Assembly (NCBI GenBank): GCA_038728085.1
Contig: JAVYUU010000006.1
Coordinates: forward strand, 1 to 55,393
Reading direction: 5' to 3'
Length of the DNA: 55,393 nucleotides
Origin: Candidatus Bathyarchaeia archaeon
Lineage (GTDB): Archaea; Thermoproteota; Bathyarchaeia; Bathyarchaeales; Bathycorpusculaceae
In this document: positions 32,692-54,887 of the stretch, in pieces
How the letters are laid out: the number at the start of each line of letters is the position of its first letter
How positions within the stretch are numbered: position 1 is the stretch's first letter
Position numbers and translations under genes: made by a program
The notes under the pieces: model-generated
Told to the model about the DNA's origin: nothing
The model's input: only the letters and a program-made list of their open reading frames with translations
Databases searched by the model: none

Positions 32692-33735
32692 ATGAAGGAG
32701 CACAGTCTATTTGGCGGTCTTAGGCTGATTCTAAAGGATGATGTTTTAGCCTTAACTTCTGAAAGGGAAGTTGTGGCTGTTAGCTCTGCGGTTTACAATG
32801 GAGGTTTGGTGAGGGCTAAAGCGGTGCTTAATGTTCATGTTCCAGAATCCTATGACCAGAAACTTCTCCATGAGCATCCAGAGCAAGTGATTCTGGAGGC
32901 TGCTGGAAAGCTGGGTTTAGATCCCCAATCCTGTGTCGGCATGATAACCGCTGCTGACGTTGGAAAATTCTCTATGATAACGGCGAGCAAGGATGACTTA
33001 AAAGTGTGCGCCATCACAACAGCCGGCTGTTCCTTGGCTGAAACAGCTGGGGAAAACGTTGAGATAAGCCTCTCAGTTCCCGGAACAATAAACATAATAG
33101 TGGCTATTGACGGCAGCCCCACGGAAAGCTGCCTCCTCCAAACATTCATAACGGCTACAGAGGCGAAAACGGCGGGTCTACGAGATCTAGACGTGAGAAG
33201 CACATACACAGGAGACCTTGCCACTGGAACGGTGACGGACAGCCTCACCATAGTGTCCACAGGAAAAGGTTCAAGAGTAAGATATGGAGGTCCAGCCTCA
33301 AAATTGGGCTGTCTGGTGGGATATTGCACAAGGGAGGCTGTGAAAAATGCGATATTAAAGGGCGGCAACATGAGTCCAACAAGATCCGTGTGGAAGAGAC
33401 TTTCCGAACGGAAACTGCCGATAGAAAGGCTTATTGCGGAAATTTCGAAAACAAGCCAGGCAAAGGAGCCTTTACTAGCCCTAGCCTTGATGATGGCTGC
33501 AAACGTTGACGAAGAAATCAGAATTGGCTTAATTCCAGAGGAATTCGGAGATATAAACGCCTTAACTGAAAAGTTTACAAGTTGCCTCCTCAAAACAGAC
33601 TCAAAGGAGATCGGGCTTCACCATCCCATAGAGCTGGATAATGCAAACTTAGACGCTTATCCCTTTCTGAAGAGTCTACTAGCCCACATAATCCGGAGAA
33701 ATCGCAATCGCCCAGTTAACCGTTTAATCCAGTAA
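32692..33735 (+). CDS. cbiZ: Adenosylcobinamide amidohydrolase with C-terminal extension
   Basis: CbiZ cleaves the aminopropanol side chain of adenosylcobinamide to give adenosylcobyric acid, letting archaea salvage foreign corrinoids. Residues about 1-225 contain the family hallmarks: MITAADVGKFSMITA, VCAITTAGCSLAE, VPGTINIIVAIDGSPTESCLLQTFITATEAKTAGLRDLDVRSTYTG, then TDSLTIVSTGKGSRVRYGGPASKLG. A further 120 residues, mostly helical (PTRSVWKRLSERKLPIERLI), have no match I recognise and make it about half as long again as CbiZ. The ATG at 32692 follows the ferredoxin by 38 bases. Its position beside corrinoid-protein genes fits a cobamide-dependent pathway. Confidence 0.93.
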   Translation: MKEHSLFGGLRLILKDDVLALTSEREVVAVSSAVYNGGLVRAKAVLNVHVPESYDQKLLHEHPEQVILEAAGKLGLDPQSCVGMITAADVGKFSMITASKDDLKVCAITTAGCSLAETAGENVEISLSVPGTINIIVAIDGSPTESCLLQTFITATEAKTAGLRDLDVRSTYTGDLATGTVTDSLTIVSTGKGSRVRYGGPASKLGCLVGYCTREAVKNAILKGGNMSPTRSVWKRLSERKLPIERLIAEISKTSQAKEPLLALALMMAANVDEEIRIGLIPEEFGDINALTEKFTSCLLKTDSKEIGLHHPIELDNANLDAYPFLKSLLAHIIRRNRNRPVNRLIQ

Positions 33736-33774: not shown

Positions 33775-34683
33775 TTATCCGACTATCTTCTCCCAGCGCT
33801 CAACAAGTTCTAGGACTTCTGGGCATCCGTAGTTCCTCAGCTTCTGTCTAAGCTCAATTTTGTCCACCGCGGCCTTTTGGAAGTCCACTATTTGACTTGC
33901 TTTGCCTGCCAAGTATAGGATGCCATCGATTCCAGTTCTTCCGCAGCGAACTGAAACCGTCAAGAGTTCCGCTGGGGATGGAACCTCCTTGGGGTCGTCT
34001 CCCGGGCCGAAAACGTATAGGCTTATGTACATTGGCTTTTTCAGCAGCTTTTTGAAGGCCATGCATAGCATTTCCCAATACCATGGGGTGGCGTAGTTCT
34101 TCGAGAACATGACCACGTTGAAAGCGTCCGCATAGGGTGCCAAGGCGTCAAAGTCTATGCCGAAACGTTCATAGGAGCACACTGGGTCTGGAAGCAAACC
34201 TATAACAAGCTCCTTTTTAACCACGTCTCGAATCTGGGCTATGTAGTCCGTTACCTCCTTCTTGCGCCATTCAAGCCAGCTTAAACCGCTTTTTTGCCAC
34301 TTTTCCTTACATCGTGGGCAAATGCAGTGACCGTGATCCGCGAAGTGGATGCTGTTCAACCAAACACCCTGAGAAGCCCTGTCCACCTCTGCAATATACT
34401 TGAGCATTTCCTCCCGGTACTCTGGAACCGTGGGGCAGAGGATGTCCCAGCGGAAATTATACCTATCATTAGTCCTCAATGCCGGTCCATACTCCGACTG
34501 GGAAACCCATTCGGGATGGTTGCGCGCCGTGACGTTGTCTCCGAATATGGCGACGTTGCTGTACATGTCATGCCTCGGCGGTTGCCTTCTTCCAACCTCC
34601 GGTTTAACCCTAAAAACGTCAAAGTCGAATCCTGGAACCTTTTCTGGCTCAAATAGGAATGTGCCAAACTTCATTTTTAGCAC
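33775..34683 (-). CDS. CxCxxC protein of a three-paralog set (copy B)
   Basis: This 302-residue protein is very similar to the divergent gene at 34808 and more distantly related to copy A. It has FDFDVFRVKPE near the start, EWVSQSEYGPALRTN, RWDILCPTVPEYREE, the motif HFADHGHCICPRCKEKW followed by LSWLEWR, LPDPVCSYERFGIDF, MFSKNYATPWYWEM and the YVFGPGDDPKEVPSPAELL loop, ending TGIDGILYLAGKA. The fold looks like a (beta/alpha)8 barrel with a possible zinc site at CxCxxC. The function is unknown. The ATG at 34683 is immediately upstream of FGTFLF, with AAGGTG on the minus strand. Confidence 0.72.
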   Translation of the reverse strand: MLKMKFGTFLFEPEKVPGFDFDVFRVKPEVGRRQPPRHDMYSNVAIFGDNVTARNHPEWVSQSEYGPALRTNDRYNFRWDILCPTVPEYREEMLKYIAEVDRASQGVWLNSIHFADHGHCICPRCKEKWQKSGLSWLEWRKKEVTDYIAQIRDVVKKELVIGLLPDPVCSYERFGIDFDALAPYADAFNVVMFSKNYATPWYWEMLCMAFKKLLKKPMYISLYVFGPGDDPKEVPSPAELLTVSVRCGRTGIDGILYLAGKASQIVDFQKAAVDKIELRQKLRNYGCPEVLELVERWEKIVG

Positions 34684-34807: not shown

Positions 34808-35719
34808 ATGTTGAAGTTTGGTTCATTCTTGTTCACGCCCGAAACTGTTGAAGGCTTCGACATCCACGTTTACCGTTTAAAGCCAGAAACAGGCACCATT
34901 GGAACCCCCAAAGAGGGAATGTACAACAACATAGCCTGCTTCGGCGACAACCAAAACGCCCAGAAACACCCGGAATGGGTGTCCATTTCAAAGGATGGTC
35001 CAGCTCTGCGAACCAACAAAAAATACAACTTTCGCTGGGACATATTATGCATGACGAATCCCGAATACAGAGAATGGATACTGAACTTCATAGAGGACGC
35101 GGCGAAAGTGGCTTCCGGAATAACCCTAAGCAGCATCCACTTCGCAGACCACGGCTTTTGCGTATGCCCAAGATGTGTGGAGCTTTGGCGCCAAAGCGGG
35201 CTCAACTGGGTGGAGTGGCGGGTTCAAACAGTCACCAACTTCATAAAGGACGCTAGGGAAAGGGTAAAGAAATGGAGTAAACCCTTCATAGTGGGTTTGC
35301 TTCCAGACCCCACCCTTTCAAGGGAAAGGTTTGGAATAGACTTCGACCAATTGGCGGAGTACGCTGACGCCTTTCTAGTTCCCATGTTCTCCAAGAGCTA
35401 TGCCACTCCGTGGTACTTTGAAACCACAGCAAGAGCCTTTAAAAAGCTGCTGAAAAAGCCAGTTTACATAAACCTCTACGTCTATGGACCGGGAGACAAG
35501 CCAAACGAGGTTCCAACAGTGGAGGACTTGCTGAAGGTTTCGGTTAGAATATGCCGAACAGGTGTTGATGGGATTCTCTACCTAGCTGAAAACGCCCAGA
35601 GGCTCAGGGAGTTTCAAAAAGCCGCTGTCCAAGCGAAGGAACTACTAAAAGAGCTGGAGGGATACGGCGGCGACGAAGTGTTAGACCTTGTCCATAGATG
35701 GGAATCCCTCTTCTTCTAA
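34808..35719 (+). CDS. CxCxxC protein of a three-paralog set (copy C)
   Basis: This 303-residue paralog of copies A and B is transcribed divergently from copy B. It shares FDIHVYRLKPE, EWVSISKDGPALRTN, RWDILCMTNPEYREW, HFADHGFCVCPRCVELWRQSG with NWVEWR, LPDPTLSRERFGIDF, MFSKSYATPWYFE, YVYGPGDKPNEVPTVEDLL and TGVDGILYLAENA. The conserved acidic and aromatic residues at predicted barrel strand ends look enzymatic. The cysteine trio is kept in all copies. It has a clear TATA box, a palindrome over the predicted start site and a GGTGAT ribosome site, so regulation differs from copy B. The function is unknown. Confidence 0.74.
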   Translation: MLKFGSFLFTPETVEGFDIHVYRLKPETGTIGTPKEGMYNNIACFGDNQNAQKHPEWVSISKDGPALRTNKKYNFRWDILCMTNPEYREWILNFIEDAAKVASGITLSSIHFADHGFCVCPRCVELWRQSGLNWVEWRVQTVTNFIKDARERVKKWSKPFIVGLLPDPTLSRERFGIDFDQLAEYADAFLVPMFSKSYATPWYFETTARAFKKLLKKPVYINLYVYGPGDKPNEVPTVEDLLKVSVRICRTGVDGILYLAENAQRLREFQKAAVQAKELLKELEGYGGDEVLDLVHRWESLFF

Positions 35720-35811: not shown

Positions 35812-37194
35812 ATGAAAGTAGTATTGATTAATCCGCCCTACCCAAAGGAGTCCCATCAACACCCACCTCTTATCCCCTTAAGCTTAGGATACTTGGGGGC
35901 TGTATGCGAAAAAAGCGGATACGACGTGAGCGTAATAGATTGCCAGGCGGAAAGGTTGGATTTTGAAGGTTTCCGTAAAAGGATTGCAGGCACAAATGCC
36001 GATGTTGTCGGCATAACATCCGCCACCCTAACCTACAAGTCAGCCCTAAGGATTGCAAAAATCTCCAAAGAGGTTCTGCCGGAGTCCACAATAGTCTTGG
36101 GCGGTTGCCACGCCACCTTTTGGGACGTAAACGCCCTTAATGAGTGCCCCAGCCTAGACATAATAGTCAGAAAGGAGGGCGAAGCCACATTCATCGAGCT
36201 TTTACAGAAGCTGGAGCATAAGGAGCCATTGAAGGACGTTAGAGGAATAACCTACAGGGATGATGGAAGAATAGTCCAAAATGAGGATAGACCCTACATA
36301 GAAAACCTCGATGATTTACCCTTCCCAGCCCACCACCTGCTGAATTTAAATGCGTACAAGAAAATGGGTAGGCTGATAATTCCCCTAATGACCAGTAGAG
36401 GCTGCATTTACTGGTGTGATTTCTGCACTGCCGTTAGGATGTTTGGCCGAAAATACCGCATGAGAAGCCCCAAAAACGTTGTAGACGAGATGGAATACTT
36501 CCATAAGAAGTACAATGTTAAACAGTTTACTTTTTACGATGATTCCTTCACTGTTGATAGGAAAAGGGTTGAGGAGATATGCGATGAAATAAAGCGGAGA
36601 GGGCTTGATGTCCAGTGGGACTGTGAGACAAGGGTTGACATGGTTGATAAGACTCTGCTTCAGAAGATGAGGGAGGCCGGGTGCATAGCCGTATGGTTTG
36701 GCGTGGAGTCGGGCTCTCAGCTGATAATTGACAAAATGCACAAGAAGATTAGGGTTGAACAGACCAGAAGGGCATTCGAAATAGCACATGAAGTTGGTTT
36801 AATGACCGTTGCCAGCGTCATTTTGGGCTTCCCCGGGGAAACAGAGGAAACGGCATGGGAAACCGTGAATTTCGTTAAAAGCCTAGACCCCACCGACGTT
36901 GGATTCTACATTGCAACACCCTACCCTGGAACACCACTATACGAAACTGTGAAGGCGAAGGGCTGGCTTAAAACAGAAGACTTCGACAAGTATGACACGG
37001 CTACTCCAGTGTTTGAAACACCATACCTAAAAATGGAAAAGCTGAAGGAGATCCGCCTAAAGGCCTATCAACAATTCTACCTCAGACCACAATACATGGT
37101 TAAGATGCTTAAAATCGGCGGCGTATATGGAATATACGCCTTCAGAACGTCTATGGCCTACCTGTTAAGGGCGCTGCACTTAAAGCTCAGTTAA
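35812..37194 (+). CDS. B12-binding radical SAM protein (copy 1)
   Basis: This 460-residue enzyme has an N-terminal cobalamin-binding Rossmann domain (about 1-140: VVLINPPYP, DVVGITSATLTYKSALRIA, IVLGGCHATF) and a radical SAM barrel. The cluster motif is GCIYWCDFC (about 198-205), followed by FTFYDDSFTVDRKRVEEIC and GCIAVWFGVESGSQLIIDKM. Such enzymes methylate unactivated carbons or rearrange skeletons of lipids and natural products. The N-terminal domain lacks DxHxxG, as is normal for this class. A TATA box (CCTATAAATA, about 35764-35773) lies upstream. A close paralog is at 47279. Confidence 0.92.
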   Translation: MKVVLINPPYPKESHQHPPLIPLSLGYLGAVCEKSGYDVSVIDCQAERLDFEGFRKRIAGTNADVVGITSATLTYKSALRIAKISKEVLPESTIVLGGCHATFWDVNALNECPSLDIIVRKEGEATFIELLQKLEHKEPLKDVRGITYRDDGRIVQNEDRPYIENLDDLPFPAHHLLNLNAYKKMGRLIIPLMTSRGCIYWCDFCTAVRMFGRKYRMRSPKNVVDEMEYFHKKYNVKQFTFYDDSFTVDRKRVEEICDEIKRRGLDVQWDCETRVDMVDKTLLQKMREAGCIAVWFGVESGSQLIIDKMHKKIRVEQTRRAFEIAHEVGLMTVASVILGFPGETEETAWETVNFVKSLDPTDVGFYIATPYPGTPLYETVKAKGWLKTEDFDKYDTATPVFETPYLKMEKLKEIRLKAYQQFYLRPQYMVKMLKIGGVYGIYAFRTSMAYLLRALHLKLS

Positions 37195-37575
37195 TCAACG
37201 TTTATGGGAAACGGCAAGCGCAAAAAGGGACAAAAGGAGAACCACGGCGGTTAAGGAAACAGTTACTGAAGTTAAATTTATCCCGATGGCTGTTAAGCCT
37301 AGAAAAAGTCCTACTAGGCTGGTGATGCTGAAGCTGAGGGCTACGGAAAGCACCAGTTTCTCTATGACGTCGACTTTTCCATTTTTGGCGAATAGCAGTT
37401 GAACAAGACAGTAGCCCGGGATAAACGAGATAAAAATGAACCCAAAAATATATCGAAACACGATTAAATAGGAGTCATTGGGGATAGCGTACACTGCCAA
37501 AAGCGTTAATATTGTGAAGGCTACTACTGCAATGAGCCATCGCTTGTCTGCCAATGTCCATTCACGCTTGTCCAA
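37195..37575 (-). CDS. Four-helix membrane protein, DUF1616-like
   Basis: This 126-residue integral membrane protein has four hydrophobic segments (about 14-30, 38-60, 72-95, 100-122). The segment FGFIFISFIPGYCLVQLLF followed by DVIEKLVLSVALSFSI matches the N-terminal portion of DUF1616 proteins, which in archaea lie near cell-surface glycosylation genes. Here it is short and alone. The start is TTG 37575 with AAGG upstream. It converges with the B12 radical SAM gene with no gap and follows the mtrH-like gene by about 40 bases on the same strand. The function is unknown. Confidence 0.72.
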   Translation of the reverse strand: MDKREWTLADKRWLIAVVAFTILTLLAVYAIPNDSYLIVFRYIFGFIFISFIPGYCLVQLLFAKNGKVDVIEKLVLSVALSFSITSLVGLFLGLTAIGINLTSVTVSLTAVVLLLSLFALAVSHKR

Positions 37576-37617: not shown

Positions 37618-38526
37618 TTAAATGAAAACCTTGAAAACAGGATGGTTGTCGCTTAATGGTTTTATTTCAAACTCAGCCATAGCCGTCAATATGTATGTGT
37701 CAACGATAGCTGCGGCGGGGAAAACGTAGTCTGCCCTTTCAATGGGCCCGAACATCAGCCAGTTTGCGCCCATCGTCTGCATTATAGCATTTGTGGCGGC
37801 GTCGCAGCCCCTCCTAATCTCCTTTGGAAAGTTAACTTTAACCCATCCGCAAGTTGTGACAACGTTTCCTGTTCCAACACCTGTTGGATAGCCAAACTTT
37901 TCCTTTATGTAGTAGATAGCCCTAACTGCCGAACCCATGTCGGGTCCAAACGCTGGGATCGAAGTGTCTATCAGAAACTTTTCTATTCCGGCTTCCCTTG
38001 CCTTTGCGAGCGCTTGCTCTGTGGCTGCGATTTTCCCTTCTGTGCTGTTGTCTGCGGGGTTTTCGGCTAGTATGATGGCGGCTTTGATTTTGGTTTCCTT
38101 GATTTTCTCTAATTCTGAGGGCGGGCTTCCCTTTGTAATGGAGCTGTATACGGCTCTTTCCGTTAAGCCCACTTCCTTAACATAGTTGGCCGCAGAGAGG
38201 CGAAGTTTTGGGCTTATGGCATCTATTAAGAACGGGGCCTCTGTGGTTTTTGAGACGAAGTCTATGTATTTTCTGAAAGCCTCCTCCGTTGTTCCGACAA
38301 CATCCAGCATGAAGGGATTGCCTGTCAAGTCGCTTAGTTCTTCAAGCCTGTTCAGTAGAGCCTCAGCCTCTTTAACGTTGAATTCGCCTTTGCTTTCGTT
38401 TGTGACTATTTTCTGGCCTTCATAGAATATGGAGGCAATTAAAACCGTTGGGAGTTCTCCGGGCTGCCCTCCAACCTTCACTCTTCCAATTTCAAAAATT
38501 TGCTGAGGAGTCTTAAACTTAAACAT
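37618..38526 (-). CDS. mtrH: MtrH-like tetrahydromethanopterin methyltransferase
   Basis: This 302-residue protein matches subunit H of tetrahydromethanopterin S-methyltransferase, which moves a methyl group between tetrahydromethanopterin and a corrinoid. Typical segments are the N-terminal FEIGRVKVGGQPGELPTVLIASIFY, then FMLDVVGTTEEAF, IDAISPKLRLSAA, FLIDTSIPAFGPDMGSAVRA and the C-terminal GANWLMFGPIERADYVFPAAAIVDTYI. The fold is a TIM barrel. The other Mtr subunits are absent from the window. It follows a corrinoid protein gene by 22 bases. The pair probably transfers methyl groups from an unknown donor to the archaeal C1 carrier, or the reverse, independent of the membrane Mtr complex. 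Confidence 0.93.
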   Translation of the reverse strand: MFKFKTPQQIFEIGRVKVGGQPGELPTVLIASIFYEGQKIVTNESKGEFNVKEAEALLNRLEELSDLTGNPFMLDVVGTTEEAFRKYIDFVSKTTEAPFLIDAISPKLRLSAANYVKEVGLTERAVYSSITKGSPPSELEKIKETKIKAAIILAENPADNSTEGKIAATEQALAKAREAGIEKFLIDTSIPAFGPDMGSAVRAIYYIKEKFGYPTGVGTGNVVTTCGWVKVNFPKEIRRGCDAATNAIMQTMGANWLMFGPIERADYVFPAAAIVDTYILTAMAEFEIKPLSDNHPVFKVFI

Positions 38527-38548
38527 GCCTTCTCCCTATGTAAGGTGT

Positions 38549-38983
38549 TTAACTTTTCCTTTCTTCCATAACCTTTTTCGCTATGGCTACAGCTTCCTCC
38601 TTGCTTTTTCCATAGAGGGCGCCTATTGCATCAGCGTCCTCCTTCTTTACAGCTGCTCCTCCAATCATTAGAACAACCTTGCCCTTGAGTCCGGCCTCTG
38701 TAAGGGCTTGGTCCAGTTTTGGCAGGTTATCCTTTGCCGGTTTTGTGTTTATTGAGACGGCTATTATGTCAGCGTTCACTTCCTTGGCTTTCGCCGCGAA
38801 GGTTTGGGGGGCTACGGCTTTGCCGAGGTCAACGGTTTTGAAACCAGCCTTTTTCAGAGCCTTTCTCACCATCTCTTTGGGGGTGTCGTGCAAGTCCGGC
38901 TCTAGGTTTCCGATGACAATGGTGCCTATGGGTTTTTCTGGTTCTGGCGGTTCCTTTTCAAGCATGGCTTTAAGCCACGACAT
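38549..38983 (-). CDS. Minimal corrinoid-binding methyl carrier with altered B12 motif
   Basis: This is a 144-residue Rossmann-type B12-binding domain related to MetH/MtaC. It lacks the N-terminal four-helix cap that normally precedes this domain. The cobalt-ligand motif DxHxxG appears as D30-L-H32-D-T-P35, so the histidine is kept but glycine is replaced by proline. The next motif is S77-I-N instead of SxL, and IGGA (107-110) is intact. These changes should alter how the corrinoid tail is held. It is the first gene of an operon with the MtrH-like gene, which is its probable methyltransferase partner. A TATA-like element lies near 39007-39014, and GGTG precedes the ATG. Confidence 0.87.
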   Translation of the reverse strand: MSWLKAMLEKEPPEPEKPIGTIVIGNLEPDLHDTPKEMVRKALKKAGFKTVDLGKAVAPQTFAAKAKEVNADIIAVSINTKPAKDNLPKLDQALTEAGLKGKVVLMIGGAAVKKEDADAIGALYGKSKEEAVAIAKKVMEERKS

Positions 38984-39063
38984 TTACATGCACCTTTCAG
39001 CGTGCTCTATAAATACTGCAGAATTTAAGTTTTATTACCCAAATTAGGGAAAAGGCGTGGTGG

Positions 39064-48703: not shown

Positions 48704-51700
48704 CTACTTTTTGGCTCTCTTTTTCACGAGGAGAGCGGCCACCGCTATTATTATAATGATTACTATGACCGCTGTTATGCTGTAAATGTACTCCATGGGT
48801 ATTGTTGGAGCCGCTGCAGGTGGTTGTTCGGTTATTGGAGCTTTAACCTTCAGCGGGAATGCATCAGTGTAGGTGCAGTCATATGCGTGGCTGATTTTGT
48901 CTTCGCCTTGGAACCAAGCTGTCCATGTCCAGTTTCCGGCAACCGTCGGCGTGAAGGATACGTGGAACATTCCATCTCTGTCGGTTTTTGTTGTCACATC
49001 AACTGTTGAACCGTCCGGCTTAACAAAGGTCACAATTACCGTGGCGTTTGGAATTCCCGGGTACCATATTTCGGTGTAGTTTACTGGGAAGTTTGGATTG
49101 AATTTCTTGACATCGTAGACTGTTACGGCGCGGAGTTTGCCGTGGATTATTATGGTTTCGTTAACGTTGCATTCCTTCCAGTCGCACCATGCAACTATGT
49201 CTGTGGAAGCCACCGGGGTGCTGCTGAAGCAGTAGAGACGTCCATCGTAGGATCCAACATAGATCCTTCCCTCGTAGACTGCTACTGAGCCGAAGATTGG
49301 TCCACCCGTCGGGTATGAGGATAATGGTTTCCCAGTTTTGGCGTCGAAGCATATTAGCGAGTAGGCGTTGTTGCCCACATAAACTTTTGCGCCGGTTATG
49401 TCGTCGACGTAAACTGCTGACGAGTAGATTACATGGCCAACCCACTGGGACCAGACTCTTGTTAGATAGGTGCGGTTTACAATCGCCCACGCGCTGGCGT
49501 ACATGTTTTCGGATATATAGAGGATGCCGTGTGTTCCGTTAAATTTGTAGGCTGGCTGCCAAGCCATGACTGTGGAGGCGGTTCCGACAAGGGTTAGGCT
49601 GATGTGGGTTATAACTGAGCCGGCGGCTGGATCAACGATGGTTAAGCGTCTTCCACCCATGAAGGCACCTGTGTCTGAGCCTATGTAGAGAACTTCGCCT
49701 GCACGGGGGTCATTAACAACTATTGGCGTGCTGACGAACCTTCTATCCGACGCTGTTATTGATAGTTTCCATATCATGTTTCCGTTTGTAGCGTTTATTG
49801 CGTGTAGGAAGCCGTCGCCCGAGGCTATGTAAACCACACCCTTATAGACGTATGGGGAGCCGCTTATTCCATAAGTTATGTTTGTGGCCGTGTACACCCA
49901 CTTCTGGTTTCCGTCAGTATCGAAACAGTAGACTTTTCCATCCATGGCGCCGACATAGATTCTGTTGCCCACAACCATTGGTGAAGACCGTTTCTGGGGC
50001 ATTGATCTAAAGAGGGCTCCCTCAGCAACTCCGCCTGCGGGCCTCTTCCATACCTGTGTGCCAGTATTCAAGTCTATGCAGTACACGTAACCGTCATCTG
50101 CACCCGTATAGACTTTGCCGTCAACTACAGCGGGGGTTGAGGATACTCTGTAGCCCGTCTTAAACTTCCAAAGCAACGTGCCCTTGTATGCATCTATACA
50201 ATAGATGTTCCCGTCGTATGATCCGAAGACTATTTTGCCGTCAGCAGCTACTGGCGATCCAACTATTGGACCATCTGCCTGGAAGTACCACTTTGGACGG
50301 CTAATGTCTGATGGTGCACTTTGTCCCGTGGCTACACGATAGCTTCCCGGAGAGCCCTCGTATGTGGGCCATGGGTCTGTTCTCTCACCAATACAATACA
50401 GGGTTCCGCCTGAAATTCCATAGAGGTTGCCATAGGCAACTATTGGCAAGGCAATATTTATCGGGATACGCCATATCAATTGACCTGTAAAGGCGTCAAA
50501 GCATGAGAAGCTGAACCCTGGGGATTGGATTCCTGCGACAGAGCCTGTTTCCGCTTGGTCGCACGTGTGTATGTATACTTTGCCGTCAGCTACCACTGGA
50601 ACACCGTAGGTAATGTAGTAGTGGGCTGGTTGTTTCCATACCATTTCGCCGGTTTTTGCGTCCCATGCCGCTACATAGCCTGGAATTGCCATGCTTTTGT
50701 CGAAATATAATCCATAGGCGGCTGCTCCGCCGAAGGCGAAGAAGGCTCTTGGACCAGCTTCGAACTCCCAGAGTTTCGTGCCGTTCTTCGCATCATAACA
50801 AGTTACTTTTGTTCCTCCGGCGCTGTGGTAGACTTTGCCGTCGTAATATGTTATGCTGTAGCCGGAATCGCCGACCTTCCAGCTTTTCCACACAAGTTTT
50901 CCAGTTGTAGCGTTTATAGCATAGATTTCGCCTTCTCCATAACCGCCATAGAACACTAGTCCCCCGCCTGCGCCAAGAGCCTCGACACCCGTCGGCAGCG
51001 GACACGTCCACTTAAGTGTTGCACCAGCAGTCGGGTTTGAGCAGTCAAAGGCGACAGCCATATGCTGGTTTGTAGTTAGGTTACGGGCTGCTGAATATGC
51101 CAGCTTATACTCTCTATAGAAGAAGGCACCCCAGTAGAGGACTTCTCCTGCAACTAAGCCGCTTATTCCAAGAGCTGGAGTGATACGCGTTGTTGAAACC
51201 CATGCACCATTGTCTATCCTATGGAATGTAATGCGGTCCATGCATATGTATCCTAGATACGTATCATCAACCTTGAAAACCGAGCCTGTTGTAAAGCCTA
51301 TTGGGGTGCCGTTAAGCCGTGAAGTCCACACCACCACTCCGGTGAAGGGGTTAAGCGCGAAGAGGTGAGTGCTGTTATAGACGAAGATTTTGCCATTAAA
51401 AGCTGTTGGCGGTCCAGCGCCGAACATGCCTCCAATTCCGCCAGGCGGGCGGAATGTCCATAAAATATCTGGCCTGTTAGGCGCCGGTCCAGGGTTAAAT
51501 CTCGTGTTTCCGCTGTCGCCACCAGAGACAGGCCATTCATATTGCATTATGTCACCGTAAGGCTGGCCAGTCCACGGGTTTATGCGTTGACTAAGCGGCA
51601 GAGTTGAAGCTTTAGCGGTGCCCTGAATCATTATTGAAAATGTTGATCCCAACAGTAGAAGCGCTATAGCAGCGATCAAAATTTTTGAAACTTTTCCCTT

Positions 51701-51709
51701 CCAATTCAT
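48704..51709 (-). CDS. Surface-anchored PQQ-like beta-propeller protein (copy 1)
   Basis: This is a 1001-residue secreted protein. A signal peptide (about 1-35) is followed by a conserved block QRINPWTGQPYGDIMQYEWP. About a dozen PQQ-like propeller repeats follow, of the type SPVxxDGxVYxGSxDGxVYCxDAxTGxxxW (to about 830). Then comes an Ig-like domain (about 850-960, DVTTKTDRDGMFHVSFTPTVAGNWTW) and a single C-terminal transmembrane helix with a lysine tail. It should be displayed outside the cell, perhaps as a double propeller. There is no evidence of PQQ cofactor or dehydrogenase residues. A TATA box (TTTTATAAGG on the minus strand, about 51745-51753) precedes it. Confidence 0.9.
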   Translation of the reverse strand: MNWKGKVSKILIAAIALLLLGSTFSIMIQGTAKASTLPLSQRINPWTGQPYGDIMQYEWPVSGGDSGNTRFNPGPAPNRPDILWTFRPPGGIGGMFGAGPPTAFNGKIFVYNSTHLFALNPFTGVVVWTSRLNGTPIGFTTGSVFKVDDTYLGYICMDRITFHRIDNGAWVSTTRITPALGISGLVAGEVLYWGAFFYREYKLAYSAARNLTTNQHMAVAFDCSNPTAGATLKWTCPLPTGVEALGAGGGLVFYGGYGEGEIYAINATTGKLVWKSWKVGDSGYSITYYDGKVYHSAGGTKVTCYDAKNGTKLWEFEAGPRAFFAFGGAAAYGLYFDKSMAIPGYVAAWDAKTGEMVWKQPAHYYITYGVPVVADGKVYIHTCDQAETGSVAGIQSPGFSFSCFDAFTGQLIWRIPINIALPIVAYGNLYGISGGTLYCIGERTDPWPTYEGSPGSYRVATGQSAPSDISRPKWYFQADGPIVGSPVAADGKIVFGSYDGNIYCIDAYKGTLLWKFKTGYRVSSTPAVVDGKVYTGADDGYVYCIDLNTGTQVWKRPAGGVAEGALFRSMPQKRSSPMVVGNRIYVGAMDGKVYCFDTDGNQKWVYTATNITYGISGSPYVYKGVVYIASGDGFLHAINATNGNMIWKLSITASDRRFVSTPIVVNDPRAGEVLYIGSDTGAFMGGRRLTIVDPAAGSVITHISLTLVGTASTVMAWQPAYKFNGTHGILYISENMYASAWAIVNRTYLTRVWSQWVGHVIYSSAVYVDDITGAKVYVGNNAYSLICFDAKTGKPLSSYPTGGPIFGSVAVYEGRIYVGSYDGRLYCFSSTPVASTDIVAWCDWKECNVNETIIIHGKLRAVTVYDVKKFNPNFPVNYTEIWYPGIPNATVIVTFVKPDGSTVDVTTKTDRDGMFHVSFTPTVAGNWTWTAWFQGEDKISHAYDCTYTDAFPLKVKAPITEQPPAAAPTIPMEYIYSITAVIVIIIIIAVAALLVKKRAKK

Positions 51710-51795: not shown

Positions 51796-54700
51796 TTACC
51801 TTTTGCGTTTGATTATGTAGATGGCTATGGCTATTATTATGATGGTTGCGAGGATTATTGCAATTATGTATTCTGTTGGTATGGCTGGTCCCACCGCCGC
51901 TTGTTGTTGCGTGAGTGGCGGTATAACTTCAAACCAATATTCCTCAGTGCAGAAGGCGTTGTATATGACTGCGGGTTTCATTTCGCCATCAGACCAGGCT
52001 ACCCAGCATGTCCATCCTGCGACGTCAGGGGTGTATGTGACCTCAAAGTATCCATGCTTGTCTGTTGTTGTGGTTATGTTGACTACGCTCATGTCGGGCT
52101 TTATTATGGAAATGTGGATAACAGTGTTTGGAATGCCAGGACGAAGGCTGCTTTGCACGGGAACATACGTCCCCTTCTGGGAATCCCACACAAATTCTTC
52201 AGGTATGGCGAAAAGTCGACCCCTTATCTTGACCGATTCGCCCAGCTTTAGCTTCATTCCTTTGACAAAATCGCTGCTAATGCTTGTAGTCACCCTTGGA
52301 GAGTCGTCGAAGCAGTAAACTTTACCATTCACTGAGCCAATGTAGACTTTTCCATCCCAAATGGCGGGAGAGGACGGCACGTTCCCGGGAGTCGTAAAGG
52401 ACGATAGCGGTTTTCCATCCAAGGCATTTAGCACCGTTACGCTGCCCACATCGCAGCCCACATAAACCTTAGGTCCTCGTATATCATCTGCATAAGCAAC
52501 TGAAGATGAGATTTGATAGCCCAACCATTGCCCCCATAGCCGATAGCCTGCTCTGCGTGGTGTAGTGGGACTCTCTCCGAAGTCTGCAACTTTGTATGGT
52601 CCAGAGTTTGGATTGGTAGCGTTCATGCATGTTATCTGGCAAAACTCAGAAATGTAAAGTCGGCCATTCCAATAGGCAGGAACCCAAACAGGTTGTGTGT
52701 TTCCAGCTAGCGTTTGATTCCATATGCTTTCTCCCGTCGTAGCGTTAAAAGCAAAGAATCTGATTCCACCTCCATTTGCCCCTGCTGGAACACTGTGTGG
52801 ATAATAGTCGACTCCTGGAAGAGCTGTTCCGTACGTAACACCTCCGCCAACAAAAAGTATGCCATCGCCAACGGTTGGTGTACCGATGTTGAAGAGGAGG
52901 CTCCAGCTGGGTACACCTATATTCATGTTAAGTGGGAAGCTTCGCCAGACTAGGCTGCCAGTTGTTGCGTTTAGAGCGTAGAGGTATCTATCGGTTGAGG
53001 TGATGTAGATAGTTCCCTTATAGTAGACTGGTGATCCGAGTACAGGGCCTTCCGTTTGATAAGTCCATAATACCGTTCCATCCTCCACTTTGAGGCAATA
53101 GACTTTACCATCCACAGAACCCACATACACCCTACTATTCACCACGATTGGAGAAGAACGTACTTGAAATTCCATCGGGTCTATCAGATGCAGAAGAGCC
53201 CCACCAGCAGGGGTCTTCCATATTAGCTGACCGGTTGTGGCGTTTAAGCAATAGAAATAGCCATCATCGTTTCCAGTGAACATCCTTCCATCCACTACGG
53301 CAGCCGAAGATCTGATAGGTGCACCCACAGTGTAGTTCCAGATTTTTGTTCCCGTATAGGCATCTAGACAATACCAGTTTTTATCATGAGAACCGACATA
53401 CACTCTGCCCTTTACAACAGCTGGAGAACTGCTAACATCACCGCCCGTCTGGAACTCCCATCTGACTTTAAGAACCTCCGGTGCCGCTTGTCCCACAGCT
53501 ACTCTTGGATTTTCGATGTTTCCAATGAGGCCATGAGTCCAGTCTTTTGGCGCGTCTGTTATGGCATACACGAAACCACCGTAAATACCATAGAGGTTTC
53601 CATAAGCAATTGTTGGGTGAGCAAAACTCATGCCAAGAATCCTCCAAAGAAGCGCTCCTGTAAAGGCGTCGAAACATGCAAAAGTGTATCCTGGTGGCGT
53701 AATTCCAGCAAATACCGCTCCTGGGGCCCGGTCACATATGCTTGTGTACACTTTGCCATCCGCCACTGCTACTGTGGTATATGAGATGAAGAAGTATGCG
53801 GGTTGTTTCCATACTAGTTCGCCTGTTTCAGCGTCCCATGCCCTAACGTGGCCATGGGGGTCAACTTCAACAGTGGTGTCAAAGATCATACCGTAGGCTG
53901 CAGCGCCTTTGTAAGCTGAGAAGGCTCTTCCACCTTTTTCGTATTGCCATAGAATCTTGCCGGTTTCTCCGTCAAAGCAGGTTAATTGGGTTGTTACGGC
54001 TGAGGTGTAAAGCTTACCATTGTAATATATTGCTGATTGTTGTACTAATCCGCCCCTTGTGTGTGTCTCCCAAAGAAGCCGCCCTGTCTTTCCATCTAAT
54101 GCGTAAACCGTTGCTTCGGTTGTTCCTAGGAAAACTTTGCCACCACCACACGTTATAACTTCACTTGGACTATGGACTACATATTTCCAAGCTATTTTTG
54201 GCTGTAACGGATTCTCTAAACTGACACCGAGGACTAAACCTTCATAGGTAGTGCTGTTGTAAGCTGTCACGTATGCCATTTTTAATTCTCGCGAGTATGC
54301 GCCCCAGAAGTATTGTCCGCTTCCAGGATGACGGGAATATTCCCGAATCCAAAGGTCTGCTACAATTTCACCTGTTGAAATTCTGAGGATTACAGGGCCA
54401 CTGCACCAAACCATGAGATATTCATCGGTTAACTTAACGACGTAGTTCGTTCCGAATCCTGATGGAGCTCTTGGTAAGGCTCGAGTCCACACAACTGAAC
54501 CGGTAAAGGCATCAAGAGCGTATAGTGTGCTGCCCGCAGCAACAAATACTTTACCGCTAAAAACTATTGGTTGACCGCTGACACCTGGCACAGAAGTCCT
54601 CCAAAGTATGTTGGGCTTGTTAGGTGCTGGTCCTGGACTGAAACCTGTTTGTCCTTCATCGCATCCGTATTGGGGCCATTCGTATTGCATTATGTCGCCG

Positions 54701-54852
54701 TATGGCTGGCCTGTTAGCGGGTTGATGCGTTGGCTTGGGTCTAAGGCGTTTGCGGCGATTGGGTTTTGAAGGATTATGGTGAGGGGTGATCCCAGTAGTA
54801 GTGTCATAATTGTGATGGTTAAAATTTTTGGAAGCTTCTCCCCTTTTTCCAT
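51796..54852 (-). CDS. Surface-anchored PQQ-like beta-propeller protein (copy 2)
   Basis: This is a 1018-residue paralog of copy 1 with the same plan: signal peptide, QRINPLTGQPYGDIMQYEWP block, repeated propeller blades, an Ig-like domain (NITTTTDKHGYFEVTYTPDVAGWTCW) and a C-terminal anchor helix EYIIAIILATIIIIAIAIYII ending in basic residues. The frame opens at ATG 54873, but ATG 54852 with GGTGTGAT upstream gives a normal signal peptide, and 54873 lies within an inverted repeat just after the TATA box. The last 92 coding bases of the anchor region are identical to those of copy 3. Confidence 0.9.
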   Translation of the reverse strand: MEKGEKLPKILTITIMTLLLGSPLTIILQNPIAANALDPSQRINPLTGQPYGDIMQYEWPQYGCDEGQTGFSPGPAPNKPNILWRTSVPGVSGQPIVFSGKVFVAAGSTLYALDAFTGSVVWTRALPRAPSGFGTNYVVKLTDEYLMVWCSGPVILRISTGEIVADLWIREYSRHPGSGQYFWGAYSRELKMAYVTAYNSTTYEGLVLGVSLENPLQPKIAWKYVVHSPSEVITCGGGKVFLGTTEATVYALDGKTGRLLWETHTRGGLVQQSAIYYNGKLYTSAVTTQLTCFDGETGKILWQYEKGGRAFSAYKGAAAYGMIFDTTVEVDPHGHVRAWDAETGELVWKQPAYFFISYTTVAVADGKVYTSICDRAPGAVFAGITPPGYTFACFDAFTGALLWRILGMSFAHPTIAYGNLYGIYGGFVYAITDAPKDWTHGLIGNIENPRVAVGQAAPEVLKVRWEFQTGGDVSSSPAVVKGRVYVGSHDKNWYCLDAYTGTKIWNYTVGAPIRSSAAVVDGRMFTGNDDGYFYCLNATTGQLIWKTPAGGALLHLIDPMEFQVRSSPIVVNSRVYVGSVDGKVYCLKVEDGTVLWTYQTEGPVLGSPVYYKGTIYITSTDRYLYALNATTGSLVWRSFPLNMNIGVPSWSLLFNIGTPTVGDGILFVGGGVTYGTALPGVDYYPHSVPAGANGGGIRFFAFNATTGESIWNQTLAGNTQPVWVPAYWNGRLYISEFCQITCMNATNPNSGPYKVADFGESPTTPRRAGYRLWGQWLGYQISSSVAYADDIRGPKVYVGCDVGSVTVLNALDGKPLSSFTTPGNVPSSPAIWDGKVYIGSVNGKVYCFDDSPRVTTSISSDFVKGMKLKLGESVKIRGRLFAIPEEFVWDSQKGTYVPVQSSLRPGIPNTVIHISIIKPDMSVVNITTTTDKHGYFEVTYTPDVAGWTCWVAWSDGEMKPAVIYNAFCTEEYWFEVIPPLTQQQAAVGPAIPTEYIIAIILATIIIIAIAIYIIKRKR
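51801..51892. repeat. 92-bp perfect direct repeat, unit 1
   Basis: This segment codes for the membrane anchor of propeller copy 2 and is identical base for base to 54987-55078 in copy 3. The flanking sequence differs immediately on both sides and the rest of the two genes is clearly diverged. This pattern suggests recent gene conversion or a recombination tract. Confidence 0.9.
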
Positions 54853-54864
54853 TTTAATCACACC

Positions 54865-54887
54865 TTGCACCATTGTGAACGGTGCAA
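54865..54887 (-). promoter_or_regulatory. Inverted repeat next to the TATA box of propeller copy 2
   Basis: TTGCACC at 54865-54871 and GGTGCAA at 54881-54887 form a perfect seven-base inverted repeat with a nine-base spacer. On the minus strand the TATA-like TTTTATAAAG (about 54889-54898) lies immediately upstream, so the dyad covers the region between TATA box and transcript start. It is an operator candidate; no equivalent dyad was seen upstream of copy 1. Confidence 0.5.

Follow-up and report, generated by a model that had tools for sequence, protein, structure and literature searches.

An MtrH-type methyltransferase that is encoded directly behind a small corrinoid protein, with no Mtr subunits beside the pair, raises the question of where the methyl group comes from and to which acceptor it is passed. 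Such a pair is found in the window, i.e., the whole stretch of 55,393 nucleotides that was analyzed, which is contig C6 of an archaeal genome of 1.43 Mb (G000). The initial annotation had described the cobalamin motif of the corrinoid protein as altered and had suggested a methyl-transfer system with an unrecognised first enzyme.

Gene order and the MtrH partner

Both genes are located on the minus strand, the corrinoid protein gene upstream and mtrH downstream, and they are separated by 22 bp. The features of the locus are as follows:

38549..38983, minus strand: cap-less corrinoid (B12-binding) protein, 144 aa (PF02310, AlphaFold model, PDB matches, family alignment)
37618..38526, minus strand: MtrH-type methyl-H4MPT:corrinoid methyltransferase, 302 aa (PF02007, TIGR01114, residues aligned with solved MtrH/MtgA sequences)
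38527..38548, minus strand: intergenic gap of 22 bp with the Shine-Dalgarno-like GGGAGAAGG ahead of mtrH (sequence)
38984..39063, minus strand: divergent intergenic region of 80 bp upstream of the corrinoid gene (sequence)
37195..37575, minus strand: DUF1616 membrane protein, next gene downstream of mtrH (PF07760; neighbour clustering, conserved in 25 loci)
35812..37194, plus strand: B12-binding radical SAM protein (BchE/HpnJ-like), recurrent neighbour (profile matches, neighbour clustering)
32692..33735, plus strand: CbiZ-like adenosylcobinamide amidohydrolase, corrinoid salvage (PF01955, 8.7e-50; recurrent, nine loci)

The corrinoid protein gene and mtrH probably form a two-gene operon. The 80-bp region upstream of the corrinoid gene is a putative promoter; AAGGTG precedes the ATG, and a TATA-like TTTATA is also present. 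The region is too short to encode a cap domain.

The MtrH protein matched PF02007 at 2.5e-85 with 286.7 bits (cut-off 22.8) and TIGR01114 with 281.4 bits, above the curated cut-off of 271.4. The MtgA model NF047990 yielded 217 bits, and its cut-off of 550 bits was not reached. In the methanogen complex, the pterin ligands are Asp102, Asn128, Asp195, and Asn229 of M. marburgensis MtrH (PMC10998594). The equivalent positions of the window MtrH are, in its own numbering, D102, S128, D187, and N221, and thus three of the four pterin residues are kept. All four are kept in most partner MtrHs, and the exchange of Asn128 for Ser is confined to the subclade of the window. Because the residues of the pterin site are largely kept, methyl-pterin chemistry is likely for the window MtrH, as judged from its sequence.

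The gene order is the same in all 29 loci in which a family member is linked to mtrH, with mtrH directly after the corrinoid gene. No methyltransferase family adjoins the pair in any of these loci, and neither MttB nor a MetH-type or URO-D gene is present beside the window pair. This agrees with the lack of an adjacent substrate methyltransferase that had been claimed, and the lack is not a local loss, as no member of the family has such a gene next to it. Upstream of the pair, all linked loci encode membrane proteins of roughly 750 aa, usually on the opposite strand. With CbiZ in nine loci and CobS directly upstream in one sister family, genes for corrinoid salvage are close by.

The 750-aa membrane proteins, DUF1616, and the GHL6/DUF4838-like 302-aa proteins were considered as partners and rejected, as they have no matches to methyltransferase families. 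The last group comprises two divergent proteins of 302/303 aa in the window (33775-34683 and 34808-35719), which contain a CxCPxC motif, are weakly related to GHL6/DUF4838, and recur near the pair and CbiZ. Farther away, two consecutive genes of the window (48704-51709 and 51796-54873) encode proteins of roughly 1,000 aa that contain PQQ-type beta-propeller repeats.

The cap-less corrinoid protein and its family

The 144-aa protein matched PF02310 at 2.3e-14 (53.7 bits, cut-off 32.1), and its B12 domain begins only 20 residues into the protein. A profile search gave no match to the helical cap (PF02607), which was detected at 1.2e-13 in the canonical corrinoid protein that this genome also encodes. 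The open reading frames and their domain matches thus bear out the proposed pairing of MtrH with a cap-less corrinoid protein of 144 residues. The nearest NCBIfam model was MtbC with 75 bits, well below its cut-off of 350, and the score for TIGR02370 (MtbC/MttC/MtaC) was 73.8 bits at a cut-off of 215.3. The AlphaFold model has the fold of a B12 domain (mean pLDDT 82), with beta-1 at residues 21-27, a loop of residues 28-33 that contains His32, and a helix from residue 34. The structures that it matched best were 1y80, a corrinoid protein from Moorella (Z 23.1, with 124 residues at 1.1 A), and MttC (7xcn). The small subunits of mutases are also cap-less, but this identity was rejected, because the pair has no mutase gene as a neighbor and the mutase small subunit of this genome is encoded separately, on contig C4.

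The motifs that had been noted earlier, DLHDTP and SIN, are indeed present at residues 30-35 and 77-79, and G108-G109-A110 completes the set. Asp30, His32, and Ser77 correspond to the Asp-His-Ser ligand triad of MetH. A whole-genome search for the family covered 101 related genomes, and 20 more loci were taken from named genomes, some of which are probably the same genomes. The cap-less family was present in 33 of the 101 genomes. It is delimited by a clean gap in identity, with at least 59% for family members and at most 42% for ordinary corrinoid proteins, and in a quick tree it formed a single clade, separated from 60 canonical relatives by a branch with 100% SH-aLRT support.

Asp30, His32, Ser77, Asn79, Gly108, Gly109, and Ala110 are invariant in the alignment of all 36 MtrH-linked copies. 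None of these 36 copies conforms to the full DxHxxG...SxL...GG pattern: Asp, His, Ser, and GG are kept, but the Leu is replaced by Asn and the expected Gly by Ala (28 copies), Pro (7), or Ser (1), whereas all 60 canonical relatives have Gly at this position. The motif does depart from DxHxxG/SxL, as the initial annotation had claimed. However, the departure is not peculiar to the window but fixed across the family, with DxHxx[APS]/SxN/GGA as the family signature in the MtrH-linked copies. The invariance argues that DLHDTP and SIN are real and selected, and the cobalt-ligand His is kept along with the Asp and Ser that partner it. The 144-aa protein is predicted to bind a corrinoid, and together with MtrH it very probably constitutes a working corrinoid carrier.

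In 8 of 37 loci, a family member was found without MtrH beside it. Seven of these eight have D-x-M (or E-x-M) in place of D-x-H and have lost the Asn, while the eighth (L187) has kept the His and has one inserted residue. In a non-redundant alignment, every one of the 36 linked copies had the His, compared with a single one of the 7 unlinked copies (Fisher p 1e-6, which is indicative only, as the sequences are related). Retention of the His tracks MtrH, in line with a working role of the linked copies as methyl carriers.

Source and acceptor of the methyl group

All 33 genomes with the family also encode MtrH and CdhD of CODH/ACS. In contrast, enzymes of catabolic methyl transfer were rare. 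RACo was absent from 31 of the 33 pair genomes, the exceptions being the window genome and G017, compared with its presence in 19 of 34 other MtrH genomes. MTTB was found in 10 of the 101 genomes, only one of them with the pair (G017), and was thus absent from 32 of 33 pair genomes, including that of the window. URO-D was absent from 13 of the 16 pair genomes tested and was found in 4 of 30 genomes overall, and the homocysteine domain of MetH (PF02574) was found in none of the 101 genomes. Sister families of the same order contain catabolic CoP-MtrH systems, in which a canonical corrinoid protein and MtrH are accompanied by MttB-family methyltransferases and RACo. In another family, canonical CoP-MtrH pairs adjoin CdhA- and CooC-like genes. 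The window genome has, on contig C2, a RACo gene that overlaps a second MtrH gene (L011:5526-8352) and a canonical corrinoid protein gene whose neighbors encode an ABC transporter and a divergent URO-D/MtaA-like protein (L012:7456-9429). It is plausible that these form a catabolic methyltransferase system.

Core methionine synthases have been argued to need a methyl-corrinoid protein (Price et al. PMC7857596; Deobald et al. PMC7005905). PF01717 picks up split MetE but not the MesC-like proteins of the window's family; these were found with a profile made from an alignment of divergent core synthases. This search overturned the reading that there was no methionine synthase: a core synthase was present in 30 of 33 pair genomes (28 MesC-like, 2 MesA-like), and none was detected in G029, G040, and G057. 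The zinc-site motif (H-x-H, E, C) is intact in the MesC-like proteins. The copy of the window genome (G000:C2:171303-172346; L268:6304-7347) matched NF004712 with an E-value of 1.4e-74, under the 387-bit cut-off of that model. A MesC-like gene was beside the pair in none of the loci examined. Within the window's family, almost every genome with CODH/ACS has such a gene, including 16 of the 19 without the pair, and therefore co-occurrence of pair and MesC was dropped as a proof. The 16 genomes indicate that CoFeSP could serve MesC, as Price et al. proposed.

The distributions of the pair and of split MetE in the window's family were also compared. The pair only was found in 24 genomes, MetE only in 22, both in 4, and neither in 11 (p 7e-5, not corrected for relatedness), and a tree of 20 genomes indicated that few independent gains and losses underlie this anticorrelation. 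The window genome itself holds the pair, split MetE, and the second MtrH with RACo. Its split MetE (G000:C1, L010:7821-9961) consists of adjacent MetE-like genes of 385 and 328 aa, and the zinc site is apparently complete only in the first.

We propose that the two proteins act as a cytosolic methyl carrier pair that is charged from the archaeal one-carbon pool. MtrH would bind methyl-tetrahydromethanopterin and hand the methyl group to cob(I)amide on the cap-less corrinoid protein, with His32 as the lower ligand. The exposed corrin would then dock on a second enzyme, like the MtrA domain, which is also cap-less. This second enzyme would most likely be a stand-alone, MesC-like core methionine synthase, which would transfer the methyl group to homocysteine. 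The first step, between MtrH with methyl-H4MPT and the corrinoid protein, is well supported; we infer corrinoid binding, the direction of methyl transfer, and the identity of the acceptor. The route from MtrH via the cap-less carrier and the core methionine synthase to homocysteine is tentative, and we would give it a little less than an even chance. It is favored because RACo and MTTB are nearly absent, because the pair and MetE tend to exclude each other, and because most pair genomes encode a core synthase, an enzyme that seems to need a methyl-corrinoid protein. With core synthases this frequent, an acceptor of the methyl group is no poorer a fit than a donor.

Alternatively, methyl groups might enter catabolically, with an unrecognised substrate methyltransferase methylating the cap-less protein and MtrH passing the methyl group to H4MPT for CODH/ACS. 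The reactions of MtrH are reversible, CdhD is encoded in every pair genome, and a cap-less carrier could suit a new first enzyme. Such an entry is also one of the two readings that Loh et al. (PMC7886697) gave for the same couple. However, no candidate first enzyme is conserved beside the 29 loci, and the pair genomes almost entirely lack MTTB and RACo, which are characteristic of catabolic CoP-MtrH systems in sister families. Thus, the methyl-transfer system of the initial annotation is upheld by the conserved pair, but its unrecognised first enzyme is the weaker reading and appears rather unlikely.

An anabolic or redox shuttle from methyl-H4MPT to an acceptor other than homocysteine, e.g., to CoFeSP of CODH/ACS or to the product of a conserved neighboring gene, would be in agreement with the strict co-occurrence with CdhD, with the conserved flanking membrane proteins and DUF1616, and with the canonical CoP-MtrH pairs beside CdhA-/CooC-like genes. 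Nevertheless, it is quite unlikely, as archaeal CODH/ACS does not depend on MtrH for the methylation of its own corrinoid and the flanking genes are devoid of methyltransferase features. The replacements of Gly and Leu, the missing cap, and the loss of the His in relatives without MtrH could also mean that the small protein has lost corrinoid binding and serves MtrH as a scaffold or a regulator. The invariance of the ligand His, Asp, Ser, and GG in all MtrH-linked copies and the cobalamin salvage genes CbiZ and CobS near several loci make this highly improbable.

Relation to described systems

The CoP-MtrH couple has already been described for the Bathyarchaeia subgroup Bathy-6 (Loh et al. 2021, PMC7886697). 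The consulted sections of that paper leave its role between a substrate methyltransferase as donor and an anabolic acceptor, and report that metE adjoins CoP-MtrH in Methanomethylicus. It is the same gene pair, with CoP flanked by mtrH and without an adjacent MT-I, as in all linked loci, and locus L052, from the genome BE326-BA-RLH (QYYE) of that study, encodes the cap-less protein with MtrH after it. The consulted sections do not speak of the absent cap, of the DxHxx[APS]/SxN motif, of the lack of RACo, or of the His-to-Met paralogues. The couple was therefore known. New here, within the literature searched, are the conserved variant motif of the cap-less protein, the context free of RACo, the paralogues with Met in place of His, and the link to MesC.

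MtbC and MttC (TIGR02370; 7xcn) come closest to the cap-less protein, both in fold and in sequence (41% across the B12 domain, as aligned by Foldseek), but they have a helical cap, the DxHxxG motif, and a cognate MT-I methyltransferase. In methanogens, MtrA likewise has MtrH as its partner, and its exposed corrinoid with a His ligand docks on MtrH (PMC10998594). However, MtrA is membrane-anchored, its fold is unrelated, and it passes the methyl group to coenzyme M, whereas the cap-less protein is a flavodoxin-like B12 domain. MtgABC-type glycine betaine systems (MttB family, CoP, MtrH/MtgA, and RACo) also combine MtrH with a corrinoid protein. In contrast to these, the pair described here lacks MttB in 32 of 33 genomes and RACo nearly always, and its corrinoid protein is cap-less.

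The proposed route bears jointly on two questions, i.e., what supplies methyl groups to archaeal core methionine synthases and what the MtrH-corrinoid couple does in Bathyarchaeia. MtrH, the cap-less carrier, and MesC are three small soluble proteins, so both questions are testable in one assay. It is conceivable, if unlikely, that these methyl-corrinoid carriers form a class of their own, cap-less, independent of RACo, and with a new loop for the cobalt ligand (DxHxx[APS]...SxN). Together with MtrH, they would feed a core methionine synthase or another undescribed acceptor, and they would be accompanied by the His-to-Met paralogues, which may bind the corrinoid via a thioether.

These natural paralogues offer a probe of how far B12 proteins can vary the lower ligand. 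Cap-less D-x-M paralogues away from MtrH are encoded at L050:6001-6438, L182:7195-7632, L184:7425-7856, L185:4598-5017, L186:7356-7793, and L189:3231-3668. In L050 and L185, a hybrid-cluster (prismane) protein gene is located directly upstream of the D-x-M paralogue.
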